Shown here: positions 28,292 through 37,579 of the stretch, one piece after another
Numbering within the stretch: the stretch's first letter is position 1
How the letters are laid out: every line of letters begins with the position of its first letter
NCBI RefSeq assembly: GCF_024138715.1
Contig: NZ_CP092074.1
Coordinates: 2,170,001 to 2,234,000, forward strand
DNA from: Emticicia sp. 21SJ11W-3
GTDB taxonomy: Bacteria; Bacteroidota; Bacteroidia; Cytophagales; Spirosomataceae
Length of the DNA stretch: 64,000 bases
Direction of reading: 5' to 3'
The notes under the pieces: generated by a model
Told to the model about the DNA's origin: nothing
Database searches by the model: none
Seen by the model: the letters and a program-made list of their open reading frames with translations, nothing else
Translations under genes and position numbers: made by a program

Positions 28292-28316
28292 TTAATCTAC
28301 TTGTTTGGTAGATTAA
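28292..28316. promoter_or_regulatory. Inverted repeat, candidate Rrf2 operator 1
   Basis: TTAATCTAC (28292-28300), a 7-base spacer and GTAGATTAA (28308-28316) form a perfect 9-base-arm palindrome. The same arms and spacer length occur before the Rrf2 gene (31652) and, degenerate, before the peroxiredoxin-like gene (35167). A weak promoter-like TAATTTG lies at 28325-28331. Confidence 0.55.
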
Positions 28317-28393
28317 ATGTGTTTTAATTTGTGTCAGAATCAGATAATCATCAACAGACGGAGAATTTCTTCAGATTTATTATTTGAGACCAC

Positions 28394-28468
28394 GGTCGTG
28401 AGTCTTATACGGAAGACAAAGAGTTTCATAAACTCTTTCAGGTGGTTCGAAACCACTCACGACAACCA
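28394..28468 (+). tRNA. tRNA-like sequence with CAT anticodon and encoded CCA, atypical D arm
   Basis: Reading 28394-28465 in standard tRNA numbering gives an acceptor stem with six of seven pairs (1:72 is G/A), a perfect 5-pair anticodon stem (28420-28424 with 28432-28436), the loop TTCATAA with anticodon CAT, a four-base variable loop, and a T arm of GGTGG / TTCGAAA / CCACT (one G-T pair). Discriminator A and CCA follow at once (28466-28468). Deviations: base 8 is A instead of T, and the D arm is weak in the standard register, although GTCTT/AAGAC (28402-28406, 28413-28417) can pair perfectly. It could be a divergent Met or Ile2 tRNA, a pseudogene, or a tRNA-derived RNA. A near-match promoter box ends eight bases upstream. 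Confidence 0.5.
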
Positions 28469-28493
28469 CAGTTTTGAATCTTGATTTAGTTGG

Positions 28494-29771
28494 ATGTTGA
28501 ACCACGCTATTGATTCAGTAAATTATTTAACAAAAATCAAACCTGCTATGGTACTCAATTATTTGGCGCTGGCTGTACCTTTCTTTTTGTTTTTTATCTG
28601 GCTTGAGTATTTCATTGCCAAAAAGCAAGGTAAGTCTTACTTTAAATTCAATAGTTCAATAGCTAATCTGAATGTTGGCATAGCTGAAAGGCTGATTGAT
28701 TTATTTACGGCCGGAGGTTTCTATTTTTTTTATGACTACCTGCATAAGAACTTTGCCATCTTTGATATTCAGCCAAGTTTGCTTTTATGGATTGCTCTTT
28801 TGCTGGCTACCGATTTTCTATGGTATTGGTATCATCGTTTCGGGCATGAAATTAATCTTTTCTGGGGGTTTCATGTAGTTCATCATACAAGCGAAGAGTT
28901 TAATTATACTGCCGCAACCCGAATAACTATTTTTCAGGCAGTGGTACGCACTTCATTCTGGTCTGTTTTACCGGTTATAGGTTTTCCGGCAGAAATGATT
29001 ACCGTTATTCTGTTAATACATGGTATATATCCCTTTTTTACACATACCCGTTTGATAGGTAAACTGGGCTTGCTTGAGTACATTATCGTTACCCCGTCGC
29101 ATCACAGGGTACATCATGCCAGCAATGAGCAATACCTGGATAAAAATTATGGCGATATGTTTATCATCTGGGATAAACTCTTTGGTACTTATGCCGAGGA
29201 AAAAGAGGAGCCGTCTTTTGGGTTAACCAAACAATTGGATAGCTATAGTTTTTTATGGCAGCATTTCCATTTTCTGGTTGAAATTGCCTACGCAACCAAG
29301 GAACAGAAAGGTTTAGGGAACAAACTAAAAGTAATTTTTGGGAAACCCTCAGATTTTGACCCTGAGATTCGGGCCAGAGCTGAGAAGCGATTCCTGGCTG
29401 TAAGAAAAGTACAGGCCTATACCACAAAATTCAGAGCTTATGTAATAGCCCAGATAGCATTTATAGTTACTGCTTTATTTTTGCTTTTACTGTTTGAACA
29501 CTACGTGCCGGTATTTTTGCAGGTATTGGCAGCATTATTTATTTTGATAACCCTGATTAACTGTGGCGCTATTCTCGACCAGCGCCGCTGGGTTTTTTAT
29601 CTCGAATTTGCTCGCGCAAGTCTGGTTCTGATCGCCACCTTTTATTATTTCCCTAACCCAACTATGGTGGGTATGGCAATTTTGTTAATATTAATAAGCC
29701 TGGCTCGCTTTTCAAGCCTTCAAAGGCACTACCTGTGGTTTATTTACGGAAAAAGAAAGGCTTTTAAATAG
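28494..29771 (+). CDS. Fatty acid hydroxylase / sterol desaturase superfamily membrane protein
   Basis: This di-iron integral membrane oxygenase has 425 residues. The histidine clusters are present in order: HRFGHE (HxxxH), HVVHH (HxxHH) and, after two membrane segments, HRVHH (HxxHH). The first half holds the catalytic region; the last 110 residues contain three extra hydrophobic segments. The family hydroxylates or desaturates lipids; the substrate is unknown. The start at 28494 lies 25 bases after the tRNA-like sequence; ATG 28548, just before a transmembrane segment, is an alternative. Candidate Rrf2 operator 1 lies about 180 bases upstream. Confidence 0.88.
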   Translation: MLNHAIDSVNYLTKIKPAMVLNYLALAVPFFLFFIWLEYFIAKKQGKSYFKFNSSIANLNVGIAERLIDLFTAGGFYFFYDYLHKNFAIFDIQPSLLLWIALLLATDFLWYWYHRFGHEINLFWGFHVVHHTSEEFNYTAATRITIFQAVVRTSFWSVLPVIGFPAEMITVILLIHGIYPFFTHTRLIGKLGLLEYIIVTPSHHRVHHASNEQYLDKNYGDMFIIWDKLFGTYAEEKEEPSFGLTKQLDSYSFLWQHFHFLVEIAYATKEQKGLGNKLKVIFGKPSDFDPEIRARAEKRFLAVRKVQAYTTKFRAYVIAQIAFIVTALFLLLLFEHYVPVFLQVLAALFILITLINCGAILDQRRWVFYLEFARASLVLIATFYYFPNPTMVGMAILLILISLARFSSLQRHYLWFIYGKRKAFK

Positions 29772-29815
29772 TTATAGATGTTTTATCATCGTAATAGGTT
29801 ATGGTAATTAAATTA

Positions 29816-29838
29816 GCTTGGTTAATTTTTAACCAAGC
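29816..29838. terminator. Terminator after the hydroxylase gene
   Basis: A perfect 10-base-pair stem (29816-29825 with 29829-29838) and a three-base loop, followed by GTAA and a T-run. Confidence 0.7.
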
Positions 29839-29905
29839 GTAATTTTTTTCGTAATTATGAAAAAAAATTTTACTCAATTTATAAAGTACAATTAAAACCA
29901 ATTAG

Positions 29906-31195
<1,290 letters not shown>

Positions 31196-31290
31196 ACAGT
31201 TACAGTTAAGACCTGCAACGGCAGTATTTGCAGGTCATATACTTTTACAAGTAACATTGCAAACTAATTTGCTGATGCAAAAATAAAAAA

Positions 31291-31479
31291 GAGATTTACC
31301 GTGCCGGAAAGTTTTATATACTGACAAACCTTACAAAAACGGAAAGGTATATCTTGATTTCAATAAAGCCATAAGCCCTCCATGTGCTTTTACACATTAC
31401 GTCAATTGTCCTTTACCCCAGGCAAAATACGTTGCCGGTTGCCATTCAGGCAGGGGACAAAACGTATGGGCAGCACTGA
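31291..31479 (+). pseudogene. Frameshifted C-terminal remnant of a DUF1684 protein
   Basis: In the 561-base gap between metY and the Rrf2 gene, the frame starting at 31308 reads YKNGKVYLDFNKA, then PPCAFTHYVNCPLP. After a shift the frame at 31423 reads QNTLPVAIQAGDKTYGQH and stops at 31479. Together these match the conserved C-terminus of DUF1684 proteins (LDFNKAYNPPCAF, CPLPP, NxLPVAIxAGEKxYG). A piece before 31308 (YRAGKF) appears in yet another register. The N-terminal half is missing, so it is a decayed gene. Confidence 0.75.
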
Positions 31480-31501
31480 AAATTTTACGTACCTTTAGTT
31501 A

Positions 31502-31589
31502 AGGCCAGGTAGCCTCAAAAAAAGCAATGTGGTTTTTTGTACTCTGAGAGGCTTCATTGCTTTTTTAAACTAATGAAGCAGTCTGGCCT
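31502..31589 (+). promoter_or_regulatory. Interleaved RNA pairing region after metY (possible pseudoknot)
   Basis: AGCCTC (31511-31516) can pair with GAGGCT (31548-31553), while a 12-base arm (31518-31529) pairs perfectly with 31555-31566, which ends in T6. The two stems interleave as in an H-type pseudoknot. AGGCCAG (31502-31508) can also pair with CTGGCCT (31583-31589), which is part of the next terminator stem. The rest of the 561-base gap holds only the DUF1684 remnant, the second terminator and the Rrf2 promoter region. Confidence 0.4.
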
Positions 31590-31618
31590 GGCTTAGCATT
31601 AGCCGGGTCAGATTTTTT
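31582..31618 (+). terminator. Terminator upstream of the Rrf2 gene
   Basis: A 12-base-pair stem with two G-U pairs (31582-31593 with 31601-31612), a 7-base loop and six Ts (31613-31618). It ends transcripts coming from the metY side. Confidence 0.75.
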
Positions 31619-31651
31619 ATGGGGTAGATAAGCCCTACAATTTATAATAAT

Positions 31652-31675
31652 TTAATCTACTAAATTGGTAGATTA
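31652..31675. promoter_or_regulatory. Inverted repeat, candidate Rrf2 operator 2 (autoregulation)
   Basis: TTAATCTAC (31652-31660), a 7-base spacer and GTAGATTA (31668-31675). It covers the expected -33 region of the Rrf2 promoter and starts 39 bases before the -7 box. Confidence 0.65.
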
Positions 31676-31690
31676 TATAGAAATATAGAT

Positions 31691-31698
31691 TATATTTG
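31691..31698 (+). promoter_or_regulatory. -7 promoter element of the Rrf2 gene
   Basis: TATATTTG, exact TAnnTTTG match, downstream of candidate operator 2 and 59 bases before the ATG. Confidence 0.6.
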
Positions 31699-31756
31699 TA
31701 CATCAATAAACTAAACTAAATACTATTTCATCAATTACAATTAACAACCGGGCGCC

Positions 31757-32191
31757 ATGATTTCTAAAAAAGCTAAATATGCCTTAAAAGCCCTGAAGGT
31801 TTTGGCAGAAAAATATGGTGAAAAAGATTCACTTACTGTAACCGATATTGCCAGTGAAGAGAGCATACCGAGGAAGTTTCTGGAAACTATTTTGCTTGAA
31901 TTAAGGAATAATGGCCTGCTAACCAGCCATAAAGGCAAAAACGGTGGTTATTCTTTAAGCATGGAACCCTCTAAAATTACGCTTGCAAGAATATTACGCA
32001 TAACAGATGGCCCAATTGCGCCCACATTATGTGTATCTATTTATTATTACGATAAATGTGATGATTGCGGCGACGAAGAAACCTGTGCCATACGACCCAT
32101 TATGCTAAAAGTGAGAGACGCCAACCTGAAAGTTTATGAAAACACAACCCTGCTGGATTTCGTTAATAAAAAAGAGCTGGCCCTGGCATGA
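31757..32191 (+). CDS. Rrf2 family transcriptional regulator with four-cysteine cluster
   Basis: This 144-residue winged-helix regulator has a DNA-binding N-terminus (SKKAKYALKALKVLAEKYG, then the recognition part SIPRKFLETILLELRNNGLL and the wing SHKGKNGGYSL). The sensory loop carries cysteines at 92, 101, 104 and 110 (C-x8-C-x2-C-x5-C), so an iron-sulfur cluster or thiol switch is likely, as in IscR or NsrR. The sulfur-metabolism surroundings suggest a CymR-like theme, although CymR lacks the cluster. Its own promoter overlaps an inverted repeat that recurs twice in the region. The signal sensed is unknown. Confidence 0.9.
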   Translation: MISKKAKYALKALKVLAEKYGEKDSLTVTDIASEESIPRKFLETILLELRNNGLLTSHKGKNGGYSLSMEPSKITLARILRITDGPIAPTLCVSIYYYDKCDDCGDEETCAIRPIMLKVRDANLKVYENTTLLDFVNKKELALA

Positions 32192-32293
32192 TTCAGCTTA
32201 TAGCTGAATAAAAAGGCAGGAACACTTTTTTAAGTTAGCTCAAGTGAGTATTTTCAAATGGGCTAATTACGTAAATTGGTAAATTGAGGTAAA

Positions 32294-33727
32294 ATGGCAA
32301 AGAAAGAGTATGATGCGGTAATAGTAGGGGCTGGGCCAAATGGCTTGGCTGCGGCTATAACCTTACAGCAGGCAGGTTTATCAGTATTACTGATTGAAGG
32401 ACGGGGAAAAATTGGTGGCGGGCTACGGTCTGAAGCACTCACATTGCCTGGGTTTTTACATGATGTTTGTTCGGCCATTCATCCAATGGCACTCGCATCG
32501 CCTTTTTTCAGGTCGTTGCCTCTGGCTGATTTCGGACTCGAATTTATCCAGCCTCCGGTAGCAGCTGCTCATCCGTTTGACGGTGGTTCAGCTGCGTTGC
32601 TCCACCGCTCTGTGGTAGAAACTGCCTCCGCTTTTGGAATAGATGAAAAAGCGTATTTAAAGTTAATTCAACCATTAACTGCGGGTTTTTCAGGGCTGGT
32701 AAATGATATACTGGCACCTTTACATTTGCCTGACAATATATGGCAGTTTACAAAATTTGGTCTCAATGCCTTGCAACCGGCTTCAATGCTTGCCGGGCGT
32801 TTTCGGTCAAAAGAAGCAAAAGGCTTGTGGGGTGGTATGGCAGCACATTCAATGCTTCCGCTTGATAAATTAACCACCGCCGCCATCGGTCTGGTTTTAC
32901 TTTCAGCTGGGCATGCGCATGGGTGGCCTATACCCAAAGGAGGCTCAAATCAGATAGCCACAGCTTTGGCAGCTTATTTCCAATCTTTAGGCGGGCAGAT
33001 AGAAACCGGTATATATATAAAGTCATTGCAGCAATTACCTTCATCAACAGCTGTATTATTTGATGTTACCCCCCGGCAGCTATTACAAATAGCTGGCCAT
33101 ACCTTCTCTTCAGTTTATCAATCACAACTGAAAAGATACAGGTATGGCATGGGGGTTTTTAAAGTCGACTGGGCATTGGCAGAGCCGGTGCCATTTACTA
33201 ATTCCGGTTGCCGACAGGCCGGTACGGTTCATATCGGGGGTACATTTGAAGAAGTTGCCAATGCAGAGAAAATGAACTGGGCCGGCAAGCATCCTGATAA
33301 ACCTTTTGTTTTATTAGCGCAACAAAGTATATTTGATACCACTCGCGCACCGGAAGGGAAACAAACATTGTGGGGTTACTGTCATGTGCCTGCCAATTCA
33401 ACCCTTGACATGACAGACCGCATTGAACAGCAGATTGAACGCTTTGCGCCCGGGTTCAGAGACAGGATTCTGGCCCGGCATACCATGAATACGGCACAAA
33501 TGGAAGATTATAACCCTAATTATATAGGGGGTGATATTAACGGTGGGGCTCAAACGCTTTCGCAGCTTTTTACAAGGCCCGCACTCAGGTGGTCTCCTTA
33601 TCGTACCTCCACCAAAGGTCTTTACATTTGTTCTTCCTCAACGCCTCCGGGTGGTGGGGTACACGGTATGTGCGGATACCACGCTGCACAAAGATTTTTG
33701 GAAGATTTGTTTCCTCAGCACAGTTAA
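32294..33727 (+). CDS. NAD(P)/FAD-dependent oxidoreductase, phytoene desaturase-like (PYROXD2 type)
   Basis: This 477-residue flavoprotein begins with the dinucleotide-binding motif VIVGAGPNGLAAAITLQQAG and ends in the FAD-contact segment GLYICSSSTPPGGGVHGMCGYHAA, a layout seen in phytoene desaturase relatives and PYROXD2. The middle part carries no carotenoid-specific sign, and no crtB neighbour exists, so carotenoid synthesis is unlikely. It follows the Rrf2 gene by 102 bases and could be co-transcribed with it. The substrate is unknown. Confidence 0.85.
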   Translation: MAKKEYDAVIVGAGPNGLAAAITLQQAGLSVLLIEGRGKIGGGLRSEALTLPGFLHDVCSAIHPMALASPFFRSLPLADFGLEFIQPPVAAAHPFDGGSAALLHRSVVETASAFGIDEKAYLKLIQPLTAGFSGLVNDILAPLHLPDNIWQFTKFGLNALQPASMLAGRFRSKEAKGLWGGMAAHSMLPLDKLTTAAIGLVLLSAGHAHGWPIPKGGSNQIATALAAYFQSLGGQIETGIYIKSLQQLPSSTAVLFDVTPRQLLQIAGHTFSSVYQSQLKRYRYGMGVFKVDWALAEPVPFTNSGCRQAGTVHIGGTFEEVANAEKMNWAGKHPDKPFVLLAQQSIFDTTRAPEGKQTLWGYCHVPANSTLDMTDRIEQQIERFAPGFRDRILARHTMNTAQMEDYNPNYIGGDINGGAQTLSQLFTRPALRWSPYRTSTKGLYICSSSTPPGGGVHGMCGYHAAQRFLEDLFPQHS

Positions 33728-33785
33728 ACAGTAATTAAGTATTTGAAACATAAACCACTATAACCCTCTAAAATTTCGCATTGAC

Positions 33786-35045
33786 ATGCCTACACCTGCC
33801 AAGAAAATCTTTTTTACCGAAGACTCAACCGTTATTTTACTCGGATTTTCAATCATTATTTTATCTATTCTGGGGGTATTGTTACCAACACCTTCATTTG
33901 GCTGGCAAACCAGCAATGATCTGCTAACGAAAGTACTGGCTTATGATAACATTGTAAAAATTCTGGTGTTATTATTAGCCGTGCTTACCTGTGCTATTAT
34001 TGGGGCCTTGGCACTTGGCAAGCCGGTAGTGCCTTTACTGGCTGGTATACCGGTTATTTTTGTGCTTACCATGCTGGCACTTATTATAGCCGGCAACAAT
34101 AAAGTAAAAAACCTTAACCTGGAGGCGGTGATTTTTAGTTTGCTGATAGGCTTAGTTATTGGTAATACTGTACAATTACCTTTGTGGTTAAAAAAATCTT
34201 TGTCAACCGAGGTTTTTGTGAAAATAGGGCTTGTAATTTTAGGTACCAGCGTAATATTTTCCGATATCCTGCAAGCAGGTTTGCTGGGGCTTATTCAGGC
34301 TTTGGTAGTGGTAGTATCAGTGTGGTATTTTGCATTCTGGGTATCTAAAAAATTAGGTATTGATGAAGAAATGGCCATTATGCTGTCAAGCGCTGTTTCT
34401 ATTTGCGGCGTATCTGCGGCTATTGCTACTTCAGGGGCCATTAAAGGAGACTCTAAAAAGTTATCGTACGTTATCTCACTGGTGCTGATAACCGCTATAC
34501 CTATGATGATATTTATGCCTTACATTGCCAAAGCGTTGGGTTTGTCTGAAGAAGTAACCGGTGCTTGGCTGGGTGGTACAATAGATACCACCGGGGCTGT
34601 AGTTGCATCAGGAACACTGGTTGGGGAAGTGGCGTTGAAAACCAGCACAATTGTAAAATTTTCGCAGAATGTTTTGTTGGGAGTTGCTGCTTTTGCCATC
34701 TCTATTTACTGGACCTACACTAACAATCCGCTGGCAAAAGATAATGAAACAAAACCATCATTGACCGTAATTTGGGACCGTTTCCCGAAGTTTGTACTCG
34801 GATTCCTGGCTGCTTCGTTGCTTTTTTCTTTCTTTGTGCCTGCCGATACCATCAATGCAGTAAAGGGAAGCCTGAAAAATCTGCAAGGTTTATGGTTTGC
34901 TTTGGCCTTTACCAGTATTGGTCTTGAAACAAACTTCAGGGATATTTTCAATAAAGACAACAAAAAGCCACTGTATGCCTTTTTAATTGCTCAAACATTT
35001 AATATTTTCATTACCCTGATAATAGCTTATTATCTGTTCAGATAA
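33786..35045 (+). CDS. YeiH family putative sulfate/sulfite exporter
   Basis: This integral membrane protein of 419 residues has about eleven hydrophobic segments. It belongs to the YeiH (UPF0324) family by the segments IGLVIGNTVQLPLWLKKSL, VKIGLVILGTSVIFSDI, SSAVSICGVSAAIATSGAIK and GAWLGGTIDTTGAVVASG. Family members are annotated as sulfate exporters, in part from links to sulfur regulators. Next to metY and an Rrf2 regulator this assignment is sensible. It follows the flavoprotein gene by 58 bases on the same strand. Confidence 0.87.
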   Translation: MPTPAKKIFFTEDSTVILLGFSIIILSILGVLLPTPSFGWQTSNDLLTKVLAYDNIVKILVLLLAVLTCAIIGALALGKPVVPLLAGIPVIFVLTMLALIIAGNNKVKNLNLEAVIFSLLIGLVIGNTVQLPLWLKKSLSTEVFVKIGLVILGTSVIFSDILQAGLLGLIQALVVVVSVWYFAFWVSKKLGIDEEMAIMLSSAVSICGVSAAIATSGAIKGDSKKLSYVISLVLITAIPMMIFMPYIAKALGLSEEVTGAWLGGTIDTTGAVVASGTLVGEVALKTSTIVKFSQNVLLGVAAFAISIYWTYTNNPLAKDNETKPSLTVIWDRFPKFVLGFLAASLLFSFFVPADTINAVKGSLKNLQGLWFALAFTSIGLETNFRDIFNKDNKKPLYAFLIAQTFNIFITLIIAYYLFR

Positions 35046-35166
35046 TTGACTTAGAAAAAACATTCCTTATGGCATGTTTAGTTTAAGCATGCCATTTTTT
35101 TTAATTCAACAGGTACTGCAATAGTATCTTGTTGTAGCTGATATGCAAAGATTATTTTATCTAAAA

Positions 35167-35190
35167 TTAATCTACTAACATACTAGACTA
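35167..35190. promoter_or_regulatory. Degenerate inverted repeat, candidate Rrf2 operator 3
   Basis: TTAATCTAC (35167-35175), a 7-base spacer and CTAGACTA (35183-35190; six of eight match GTAGATTA). It starts 38 bases before a -7 box, nearly the spacing of candidate operator 2. Confidence 0.5.
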
Positions 35191-35204
35191 TATAGATTAT
35201 TTAT

Positions 35205-35212
35205 TATATTTG
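35205..35212 (+). promoter_or_regulatory. -7 promoter element of the peroxiredoxin-like gene
   Basis: TATATTTG, exact TAnnTTTG match, identical to the Rrf2 gene box and 44 bases upstream of the ATG. Confidence 0.6.
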
Positions 35213-35255
35213 CATCGTTAACGGAAAATAAAGTATTTAAATCGATTCAGACGTT

Positions 35256-35888
35256 ATGAGCAACTACACACCCAAATATGACCCGGCTTTCTGGGATACT
35301 GATATTCAGGTAAAAAGAAACAACAGTAAGTTGTTGCCATTGCTTACCGGCTCTAATGCACCCGATATTACTTTCAAAAAAGATATGGGTATCTGGCAGC
35401 AGGTTTCTTATCGATTTAATTATACCCAGGCTACCATAAAGTCAATTATGGATAATAAGCCTCTGGTTATCAGTTTTTTATCTGGCGGCTGGAATAACTA
35501 CGGTTTAAAACACCTGAAGTTACTGAGCCAGGCATATCCTGAGATACTTGCTTTAGGAGGTAACCTGCTGGTAATTGTGCATGCTATGTATCAGGACGTT
35601 AGAGAAATGGTGCAATACTTTGAGATTCCGTTTAATGTAATTGCAGACCCACATAACGAGATATCGGAAAAGTTCGGGCTTTTTTCGAAGGATGTTCCTG
35701 TTTGGGATAAGGTGTCTGGCATTTCAGAAGAGGTACCTATTCCGGCTACCTATGTACTTAATCAATATGCAAATGTCATTTATCATACTATAGACGAAGA
35801 TTTTTTGCATACATTTTCGGCAACCAAAGTGCTGGGGGCTGTGTTTGCGGCTGTCAACAGGGTTCCGTTTGTTAATTATGCTGCCTGA
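35256..35888 (+). CDS. Peroxiredoxin-like (AhpC/TSA) protein with no cysteine
   Basis: This 210-residue protein has the thioredoxin-fold layout of AhpC/TSA proteins: a start strand with SNAPDITF, KPLVISFLSGGWNNYG (residues 68-83) where active relatives have GGWCPYC, then LLVIVHA, FNVIADPHNEISEKFGLF and the cis-proline region IPATYVLNQYANVIYHTIDEDF. Both active-site cysteines are replaced (N80, G83), and the whole protein contains no cysteine. It cannot be a thiol peroxidase and is perhaps a binding or regulatory protein. Its promoter carries candidate operator 3. The hydrolase gene follows on the same strand. Confidence 0.82.
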   Translation: MSNYTPKYDPAFWDTDIQVKRNNSKLLPLLTGSNAPDITFKKDMGIWQQVSYRFNYTQATIKSIMDNKPLVISFLSGGWNNYGLKHLKLLSQAYPEILALGGNLLVIVHAMYQDVREMVQYFEIPFNVIADPHNEISEKFGLFSKDVPVWDKVSGISEEVPIPATYVLNQYANVIYHTIDEDFLHTFSATKVLGAVFAAVNRVPFVNYAA

Positions 35889-35942: not shown

Positions 35943-36524
35943 ATGCAATTCAGAACAGACATCAATTATCTGACAATCCCGGGTCTGGCAAGTTCTGGTC
36001 CGAGGCACTGGCAGACTATTTGGGAAAAACAGAGTCCGGCTATTTTTACCAGAGTAGAACAGGATAACTGGGACCTGCCCAATCGTGCCGAGTGGGTAGA
36101 CCGTCTGAATAGTTATATAAGTAATTTTAAGCAACCTACCATATTGGTAGCACATAGCCTGGGGTGCTTAACTGTTGCGCATTGGGCTCAAAAGTTTTAC
36201 TCTCCATTCGTTAAAGGCGCTTTGCTGGTTGCCCCTGCAGATGCAGAATTATCAGAAAGGCTAAGTTTTGTTGAAGGGTTTAGTCCGATACCAAATACAA
36301 ATCTGCCGTTTGAAACCCTTGTTGTAGCAAGTACCAATGATATATATGCCTCTATTGAGCGCTCAGCATATTTTGCACACCAATGGGGCAGTGCATTTCT
36401 CAACATAGGGGCAAAGGGGCATATCAATGCCAGTTCAGGTTTTGGTGAATGGGCGGAGGGTAAAGCTATTTTGCACGATTTTACCAGCAGGTTGACAAAA
36501 CCAGCTGAGGTGGCCTATTTGTAA
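35943..36524 (+). CDS. Small serine hydrolase, RBBP9/YdeN family alpha/beta hydrolase
   Basis: This 193-residue alpha/beta hydrolase is of the RBBP9/YdeN type. The family start GLASSGPRHWQTIWE and the nucleophile elbow VAHSLGCLTVAHWA (serine about residue 70) are clear. DIYASIERS holds the likely acid and KGHINASSGFGEW the catalytic histidine. The natural substrate is unknown for this family. It lies 54 bases after the cysteine-free peroxiredoxin-like gene and is probably co-transcribed, which would place it in the inferred Rrf2 regulon. Confidence 0.88.
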   Translation: MQFRTDINYLTIPGLASSGPRHWQTIWEKQSPAIFTRVEQDNWDLPNRAEWVDRLNSYISNFKQPTILVAHSLGCLTVAHWAQKFYSPFVKGALLVAPADAELSERLSFVEGFSPIPNTNLPFETLVVASTNDIYASIERSAYFAHQWGSAFLNIGAKGHINASSGFGEWAEGKAILHDFTSRLTKPAEVAYL

Positions 36525-36676: not shown

Positions 36677-37579
36677 ATGAAAAAAGTTTACCTGAGTGAT
36701 TCGGGCCCTAAAGTTTCGGAGGCAATTTACGGGTTCTGGAGATGGAACGATGAGGGACAAAGTACCACGGCACAAATTGAGAAGATAATTAATCTCTGCC
36801 TTGAGCTGGGTATTAATACTTTTGACCATGCCGATGTTTATGGAAACTATACCATTGAAGAGCATTTCGGTAAAATTATTAAAAGCAAGTCTTTTAAGAG
36901 AGAAGACATTGTTCTTTTTAGTAAATGTGGTATCCGGAAGTCTGATGATGGTTCGTTTGATTACTATGATACATCAAAAGAGCATATTCTGAAAAGTGTT
37001 GATAATTCACTGAAAAGGCTAAAGACTGATTATCTTGATATTTTTCTGCTGCATCAAAGCGATTTTCTTTCAGACCCTGAGCAAACCGCAATGGCCTTGG
37101 CACAGGTGGTAAATTCTGGCAAGGTTAATCATATTGGTGTGGCCAACTTCACTGTTTTTCAGCATCAACTTTTGGCCTCTTACCTGTCTATTCCGATTGT
37201 AACTAATCATATTGAGTTAAATCTGATGAACACAACCGCCATTGAAGATGGCCGGATAGATTTCATTAAGCAAAGTTTTAGCAAACCATTGGCTTGGGCG
37301 CCTTTGGCTGGTGGTAGGATTCTTAGCGGAGAAGACGAAAAGGCCGTTAAATTAAGAACAGTGCTTGAAAGAATTGGTACCAGGTATAATGCTAACATTG
37401 AGCAAACGGCCGTAGCATGGCTTATGAAACTAGGCACATTGCCCATCATAGGGTCAACATCAGAAAGCCGCATCCGTAATGCTGCCAGTGCCTCAGCTGT
37501 TAAATTAACTCATCAGGAATGGTATGAGATTTACAGAGTGGTTGGTAACGCTGTAAATACAGATATAGGGCATGAATAA
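36677..37579 (+). CDS. Aldo/keto reductase (YdhF-like)
   Basis: This NADPH-dependent oxidoreductase has 300 residues and a TIM-barrel pattern. The catalytic tetrad parts are visible: the aspartate and tyrosine in NTFDHADVYGNYTIEE, the lysine in VLFSKCGI, and the histidine in YLDIFLLHQSD. The end LPIIGSTSESRI is the usual cofactor-binding segment. Overall order and length resemble the YdhF subgroup. It has its own promoter and is followed by convergent genes. The substrate is unknown. Confidence 0.9.
   Translation: MKKVYLSDSGPKVSEAIYGFWRWNDEGQSTTAQIEKIINLCLELGINTFDHADVYGNYTIEEHFGKIIKSKSFKREDIVLFSKCGIRKSDDGSFDYYDTSKEHILKSVDNSLKRLKTDYLDIFLLHQSDFLSDPEQTAMALAQVVNSGKVNHIGVANFTVFQHQLLASYLSIPIVTNHIELNLMNTTAIEDGRIDFIKQSFSKPLAWAPLAGGRILSGEDEKAVKLRTVLERIGTRYNANIEQTAVAWLMKLGTLPIIGSTSESRIRNAASASAVKLTHQEWYEIYRVVGNAVNTDIGHE

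Follow-up and report, generated by a model that had tools for sequence, protein, structure and literature searches.

The closest described counterparts of the system considered here are CymR, the Rrf2-type repressor of cysteine metabolism in Bacillus and Staphylococcus, and IscR, NsrR and RirA, the iron-sulfur (Fe-S) regulators of the Rrf2 family. CymR acts with CysK as a partner (excerpt of PMC2869319). In Rhodococcus, a sulfur-sparing response has been described in which the starvation proteins are poor in cysteine and methionine and a CymR/Rrf2 protein is proposed as regulator (excerpt of PMC8557817), and the 1-Cys peroxiredoxin LsfA of Pseudomonas is strongly induced by sulfur starvation (excerpt of PMC12581299). 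In this study we examine a palindrome that recurs in three promoters of a 64,000-nucleotide stretch of the Emticicia sp. 21SJ11W-3 genome (contig NZ_CP092074.1, positions 2,170,001 to 2,234,000; hereafter the window), one of them the promoter of a gene for an Rrf2-family regulator (31757..32191, + strand), termed the window Rrf2. By following the palindrome through the genome and its relatives, and by examining the genes and proteins linked to it, we hypothesize that it is the operator of a sulfur-starvation, sulfur-sparing regulon run by an Rrf2-family repressor, probably a protein with four invariant cysteines; from the sequence comparisons below we consider this likely. Among the hits listed for open-licence PubMed Central papers, none was found to describe the operator or a sulfur regulon that Rrf2 runs in these bacteria. 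The genome itself is labelled G000, and relatives, loci, families and genera are cited by G-, L-, f- and g-numbers.

The operator and its distribution

The pattern TTAATCTAC-N7-GTAGATTA matches at 28292 without mismatch on both strands, at 31652 with none on the + strand and one on the - strand, and at 35167 with two and three, respectively; elsewhere in the window there is no match at <=3 mismatches. These six strand-matches at three places compare with 0.23 expected, and none of 100 shuffles reached six: the palindrome, as the original prediction had proposed from the letters alone, is real and far beyond chance. That prediction had treated the 7 bases between the arms as a free spacer. In a 25-position profile built from 15 hand-picked sites (seven from the Emticicia genome and four each from G094 and G085), however, the centre tends to YAAWTTR, and the element is therefore one continuous palindrome of 25 base pairs (bp), roughly TTAATCTACYAAWTTRGTAGATTAA. 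Pattern and profile matches together support a single putative operator family shared by the three sites: operator 1 (28292..28316), a perfect palindrome upstream of a fatty acid hydroxylase gene; operator 2 (31652..31676), in the promoter of the Rrf2 gene; and operator 3 (35167..35191), with an imperfect right arm, in the promoter of a gene for a peroxiredoxin-like protein.

Identical Bacteroidota-type -7 boxes, TATATTTG, lie on the + strand at 31691..31698 and 35205..35212, 39 and 38 bases past the starts of operators 2 and 3, exactly as first noted, whereas operator 1 has only a weaker, approximate box, TTAATTTG, 32 bases past its start. Boxes of the form TAnnTTTG, which we take to be the consensus of this -7 element, mostly start about 28-40 bases past the site start, and several sites have none. 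In G000 and G027 a TACATTTG box precedes the operator of the peroxiredoxin gene; both placements fit repression.

All three sites recur at orthologous promoters: that of the fatty acid hydroxylase gene in G027 and G094, that of the Rrf2 gene in G094 and G027, and that of the peroxiredoxin-like gene in G094, G027, G074 and G109. The expectation that genomes with the same Rrf2 gene would keep the palindrome before it holds for G094 and G027 and fails for G109, where a window-type Rrf2 (79 % identical) has no operator before the gene and one stands before a fatty-acid-hydroxylase gene two genes upstream.

The original prediction of a local regulon of three sites is rejected by further sites in the 5.18-Mb genome and matching promoters in relatives. 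A pattern search found a perfect match at genome position 930999, matches with <=2 mismatches at 2347502 and 3557706, and one with <=3 at 4066213. The first precedes a TonB receptor gene on the minus strand, with the same geometry between operator and -7 box as at the window sites, and behind the other three lie a 1-Cys peroxiredoxin gene, a SusC/SusD pair followed by a gene for a 467-residue protein (a provisional label 'DoxX-like' was dropped, as Pfam finds no family), and a Sulf_transp (YeeE/YedE) pair. We accept seven promoters in the genome, three in the window and four elsewhere, as operator-bearing. Hits with three mismatches were rejected as a class, being mostly noise: in 7 of the 11 genus genomes a reversed control pattern produces at least as many forward hits (in G000 itself, though, 15 for the pattern against 7). 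The three-mismatch places in G000 other than 4066213 were dropped as probable chance, as was 2579669 (2 mismatches), which is not among the listed profile hits. A weak profile site (13.6 bits) lies at 1588536, about 100 bases before a 999-residue open reading frame (ORF).

Over the 11 genus genomes the profile found 41 distinct places at E<=0.1, all of which were classified. Eleven are training sites, and for each of the remaining 30 a gene starts in the right orientation within 420 bases (one place, on contig C34 of G110, falls inside the over-extended start of its own target ORF). Twenty-four of these independent sites precede homologues of regulon-set genes, namely peroxiredoxin (9), DUF1684 (3), YeeE (3), the peroxiredoxin-like protein (2), fatty acid hydroxylase (2, one weak at 29.8 % identity), and SusC, Rrf2, a redoxin-domain protein, a TonB receptor and MetY (one each); a site on G110 contig C32 has the sequence of a training site. 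The other six precede other genes. The motif is thus not common at unrelated positions, in line with what had been expected of a true operator, and the peroxiredoxin gene carries it in 10 of the 11 genomes, G000 included.

Outside the genus, scans of hand-picked relatives (one of 19 genomes, taken from the sister genus g23 and from relatives with more than one Rrf2 copy; another of 24) revealed strong palindromes before TauE genes in g23 (G093, G061, G117, G084, G022, G109) and before TonB receptor genes in four of the same genomes (G093, G061, G084, G109). Farther out, the palindrome precedes TauE in genus g32 (G051, G087, G076, G032) and in G045, and sulfite reductase in G045 and in G134 (family f14). 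In an order-wide sample of 241 genomes, under stricter filters that lose weak sites, only 12 genomes have sites at E<=0.01, some with no visible sulfur link, and the exact operator is therefore mainly a feature of the Emticicia lineage. The operator allows the regulon to be recognised directly in genome sequences.

Sulfur genes and sulfur-poor proteins behind the operator

Across genomes the operator's targets are 1-Cys peroxiredoxin, Sulf_transp (YeeE/YedE), TauE, MetY, SusCD and TonB receptors, with sulfite reductase in other genera. Genes that stand at scattered operators in G000 form clusters with copies of Rrf2 in G110, G085 and G049; further members of the G110 cluster are a sulfite-oxidase-type molybdopterin oxidoreductase (Oxidored_molyb, Mo-co_dimer), a cytochrome c, TauE, DUF4395, a redoxin-domain protein and a class-V aminotransferase, cysteine-desulfurase-like by reading of its sequence. 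The theme, which the first reading had taken to lean towards peroxide defence, is re-read here as sulfur starvation. A peroxide or Fe-S stress regulon with the sulfur genes as secondary members would account for the peroxiredoxin and redoxin-domain targets, for four cysteines that could hold a cluster and for sites before a nuoI-like gene in G019 and G014; we regard it as unlikely, since most of the named conserved targets are sulfur genes, the receptors behind the operator are sulfur-poor, and a 1-Cys peroxiredoxin is among the most induced genes of sulfur-starved Pseudomonas (excerpt of PMC12581299). The nuoI-like sites, found in two genera (L181, L184; the gene read from translation), consist of an operator-like site with a TAnnTTTG box behind it and hint that respiratory Fe-S proteins may be connected with the system. 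The operator-linked 1-Cys peroxiredoxin at L022 (211 residues, 1-cysPrx_C domain) has one cysteine and one methionine past the start; among solved structures it matches 6p0w best (E 2e-94), which we take to be LsfA. Unlike LsfA-type peroxiredoxin in Pseudomonas, the Emticicia counterpart is placed under an Rrf2-linked operator.

Sulfur assimilation genes are also found beside Rrf2 relatives in more distant genomes. In family f19, 15 genomes have both an Rrf2 relative and sulfite reductase, and in 14 of them the two are no more than about 4.2 kb apart; at four loci (L307, L308, L312, L313) Rrf2, cysH, cysD, cysN, sulfite reductase and cobA are consecutive, the names at L307 being backed by Pfam (PAPS_reduct twice, GTP_EFTU, NIR_SIR, TP_methylase), and at L311 the Rrf2 relative is surrounded by sulfite reductase, cobA and a cysH-like gene. 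Of the 241 order genomes, 93 carry Rrf2 together with sulfite reductase, 22 have Rrf2 without the reductase, 21 the reductase without Rrf2, and 105 lack the two, absence of Rrf2 meaning no match at E<=1e-25; outside the family of G000 the counts are 64, 22, 21 and 105 (odds ratio 14.5).

Sulfite-reductase promoters were scored in 90 of 114 genomes (30 loci and 60 fetched), chosen before scoring, the 24 unscored including 6 Rrf2-negative genomes, fragments and further genomes from the family of G000. At p<=0.02 an operator-like site lies upstream in 32 of the 75 Rrf2-positive genomes versus none of the 15 Rrf2-negative ones (Fisher 0.0008), and at p<=0.05 the counts are 41/75 and 0/15. Under a second criterion, by which no more than 1 of 60 randomised sequences may do as well, the motif yields 34/75 and 0/15, and twelve column-permuted palindromes give 1-7/75 and 0-2/15. 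Within families, too, sites are found in Rrf2-positive versus Rrf2-negative genomes at 8/12 versus 0/4 (f18), 1/3 versus 0/5 (f20), 1/1 versus 0/3 (f4) and 1/2 versus 0/2 (f14). These contrasts bear on the proposal that a regulator unrelated to Rrf2, such as a MarR, GntR or LysR protein, binds the operator and controls the sulfur genes while Rrf2 is a bystander. Rrf2 is tied to the operator by neighbourhood and co-occurrence alone, which leaves room for such a protein, but the empty Rrf2-negative class and the four within-family contrasts argue against it, as does the resemblance of the site, in length and in its 7-bp centre, to the 23-bp NsrR operator (excerpt of PMC9338935), and we think it improbable. 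In several f19 genomes a form like CCTAT-N7-ATAGG was seen by eye at a similar distance before sulfite reductase.

Several operator-linked proteins are poor in cysteine and methionine. SusC has no cysteine and, past the start, no methionine in 1013 residues, and the TonB receptor has no cysteine and one methionine in 860, whereas a typical receptor of the Emticicia genome would hold about 12.5 sulfur residues in that length; SusD has one cysteine and no methionine in 445 residues, the 467-residue protein one methionine, and MetY two methionines in 428. Sulfur residues number zero in all four SusC sequences, that of G000 included (two occur in a further operator-bearing SusC, 47 % identical), and 0-3 in all ten TonB receptor sequences, some of them within over-extended starts. 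Among 21 large receptors of the genome, read from 25 large ORFs in loci for the best 30 of 55 search pieces, these two are the lowest in sulfur, and among the 20 with upstream sequence they are the sole ones with an operator (scores 31.0 and 34.8; at most 1.6 for the rest). More generally, the first genes after operators have a median of 1.35 sulfur residues per 100 residues (n=61, counting orthologues and divergent neighbours) versus 2.68 for 502 other genes at the 41 hand-selected loci examined. Unlike the Rhodococcus response, the depletion reaches zero over a 1013-residue outer-membrane SusC, with a defined operator. If true, receptors of 850-1000 residues with no or next to no methionine and cysteine would represent element-sparing protein evolution at an extreme, and would offer a marker, open to direct test, of which SusCD systems serve sulfur scavenging. 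Two other SusC-type receptors, at G000:C1:3563470 (L320) and 2491927 (L336), hold 3-4 sulfur residues (three methionines; three methionines and one cysteine) with operator-free upstream regions, possibly reflecting another low-sulfur control.

The Rrf2 regulator and a candidate mechanism

The window Rrf2 (144 residues) belongs to the Rrf2 family by PF02082 (E 2.1e-33), and its structural model (pLDDT 86), a monomer and as such uninformative on cluster binding, shows the winged-helix fold of CymR, whose solved structure 2y75 is the best Foldseek match (TMq 0.78). By sequence, too, the closest proteins of solved structure are CymR proteins. Cysteines 92, 101, 104 and 110 are invariant in all 40 sequences of a hand-picked alignment, and their spacing, C-x8-C-x2-C-x5-C, is kept in 51 of 51 close homologues. 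Besides the fold, the protein shares with CymR sulfur and cysteine genes as targets, here by operators and gene context alone; it differs in that the CymR alignment lacks the stretch bearing the four cysteines and in targets such as SusCD. With IscR, NsrR and RirA it shares the fold, a cysteine-rich loop in the same region and, putatively, palindromic sites, but it has four cysteines rather than three, and sulfur targets; the three cluster cysteines of those regulators, presumably spaced C-x5-C-x5-C or C-x7-C-x5-C, are not found in it as such. Scores against the curated models lie far under their cut-offs (in bits, CymR 73.8 against 195, IscR 54.2 against 207.55, NsrR 31.9 against 182, RirA 45 against 193), and the window Rrf2 is therefore CymR-like by context and not filed as CymR.

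Several results weigh against a sulfur-sparing regulon under this regulator. At the strictest threshold for sulfite-reductase sites (p<=0.001) the contrast is 17/75 versus 0/15 (Fisher 0.065), and in some families few or none of the Rrf2-positive genomes have a site (f15 0/12, f16 0/2, f12 0/3, f5 1/5, f19 3/15), genomes within one family moreover not being independent; the sulfite reductase of G000 itself has a weak site only. Six of the 30 independent genus sites, and the strong sites of G068, G204 and G289 in the order sample, have no clear or visible sulfur link. Sulfur residues are not depleted in YeeE, in Rrf2 or in most TauE proteins; in the peroxiredoxin-like protein methionine is at an ordinary level (4 in 210), and at 210 residues its want of cysteine alone is a weak count. 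The peroxiredoxin promoter of G094 is without the TACATTTG box. As for the regulator, a second Rrf2 gene in the genome (G000:C1:730747), 64 % identical to the window Rrf2 and of a housekeeping type, has no operator upstream in the copies scored. In G102 the single Rrf2 match is closest to the housekeeping type, yet operators precede the peroxiredoxin and DUF1684 genes, and G117 likewise combines an operator with a lone housekeeping-type Rrf2 match. At L167 and L169 (G093, G061), distinct Rrf2 proteins, 32-35 % identical and with another cysteine pattern, lie near the same kind of operator.

Some of these points would also fit a reading in which the operator belongs to the housekeeping Rrf2 and the window Rrf2 is only one of its targets or a feed-forward duplicate. 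An Rrf2 of this kind occurs throughout the family (matches at E<=0.001 in 119 of 120 genomes), the recognition regions of the two copies look alike, and G102 manages two operators with such a copy as its sole Rrf2 match. By contrast, window-type and other extra Rrf2 copies sit inside the regulon clusters, the operator stands at the window copy and at two of its orthologues, an arrangement typical of repressors that control their own gene, and it is missing upstream of the housekeeping copy. We hold this alternative to be possible, if the less probable one. The original prediction was probably right about Rrf2: the promoter of the window Rrf2 gene carries the operator here and in G094 and G027, and binding of the sites by this protein appears likely. 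Since a 64 % identical paralogue exists and G102, with a single Rrf2 match closest to the housekeeping type, still has two operators, the 730747 paralogue, the window Rrf2, or both may bind.

A sulfur-starvation regulon under Rrf2 would work as follows. When sulfur is sufficient, a dimeric Rrf2 repressor, made from an operator-bearing promoter, would cover the -33 region and shut the promoters. When sulfur falls, sensed probably as cysteine, or as Fe-S cluster or persulfide status, the four-cysteine sensor loop would change state and the repressor would leave. Derepression would then yield proteins for sulfur scavenging and handling (TonB and SusCD receptors, YeeE/YedE, TauE, YeiH, MetY and sulfite reductase) and for peroxide defence (1-Cys peroxiredoxin), and because several of the induced proteins, chiefly the huge receptors, are nearly free of methionine and cysteine, the sulfur cost of the response would be low. 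On a wider proposal we are evenly divided: that this is a Bacteroidota sulfur-starvation regulon with an Rrf2 sensor that has four cysteines and is neither CymR nor IscR, an outer membrane redeployed with SusC and TonB receptors that have evolved to be free of sulfur, and a peroxiredoxin-like protein that, without its catalytic cysteine, serves another task.

Genes and other features of the window

The ORFs around the sites are as first described, from the ORF list and Pfam and TIGRFAM models, with families that include MBOAT. The peroxiredoxin-like protein (35256..35888, + strand; PF00578) was correctly read as cysteine-free: no cysteine occurs in any of the four aligned sequences (its own and three orthologues), or in any of the five in a composition count, so that the peroxidatic cysteine of an active peroxiredoxin is absent. 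All four carry GGWNNYG at the loop of the expected active-site cysteines, where, we assume, related proteins usually have them. No solved relative was found by sequence at E<=0.01. We conclude that the gene belongs to the sulfur-starvation regulon, which provides a frame for this protein. Downstream lie, on the + strand, an RBBP9/Ser_hydrolase-type alpha/beta hydrolase gene (35943..36524; PF06821; one cysteine, no methionine past the start), probably in the same operon, and an aldo/keto reductase gene (36677..37579; PF00248), which is in the same cluster in relatives.

The gene behind operator 1 encodes a fatty acid hydroxylase/sterol desaturase family protein (28494..29771, + strand; PF04116) that is found in the Rrf2/TonB cluster of relatives. 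It is followed by a MetY-type O-acetylhomoserine sulfhydrylase gene (29909..31195, + strand; TIGR01326), whose product has no cysteine besides its two methionines past the start; in G074 an operator centre lies 305 bases upstream of this gene. Behind the Rrf2 gene, and probably in its operon, lie genes for a CrtO/phytoene-desaturase-like flavin adenine dinucleotide (FAD) oxidoreductase (32294..33727, + strand), with the gene order kept in L060 and L061, and for a YeiH-family putative sulfate exporter (33786..35045, + strand; PF03601), which scores 107.1 bits with TIGR00698, under the cut-off of 232.6.

The leader of the fatty acid hydroxylase gene contains a hairpin-rich stretch (28375-28480). 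An RNA element in this 5' leader (28330-28500) was rejected, with a folding z of -0.98 and a single copy in the genome, and the whole window has no Rfam match at gathering score. In several genera, genes for PstS-like substrate-binding proteins adjoin operator sites (L021, PBP_like_2 by Pfam; L182, L194 and L347, read from translation). Between MetY and Rrf2, at 31282-31476, the window holds what remains of a DUF1684 gene, spread over two frames (tblastn, 65 % over 37 residues); L060 has an intact copy between the same two genes, and L061 has one ahead of Rrf2.

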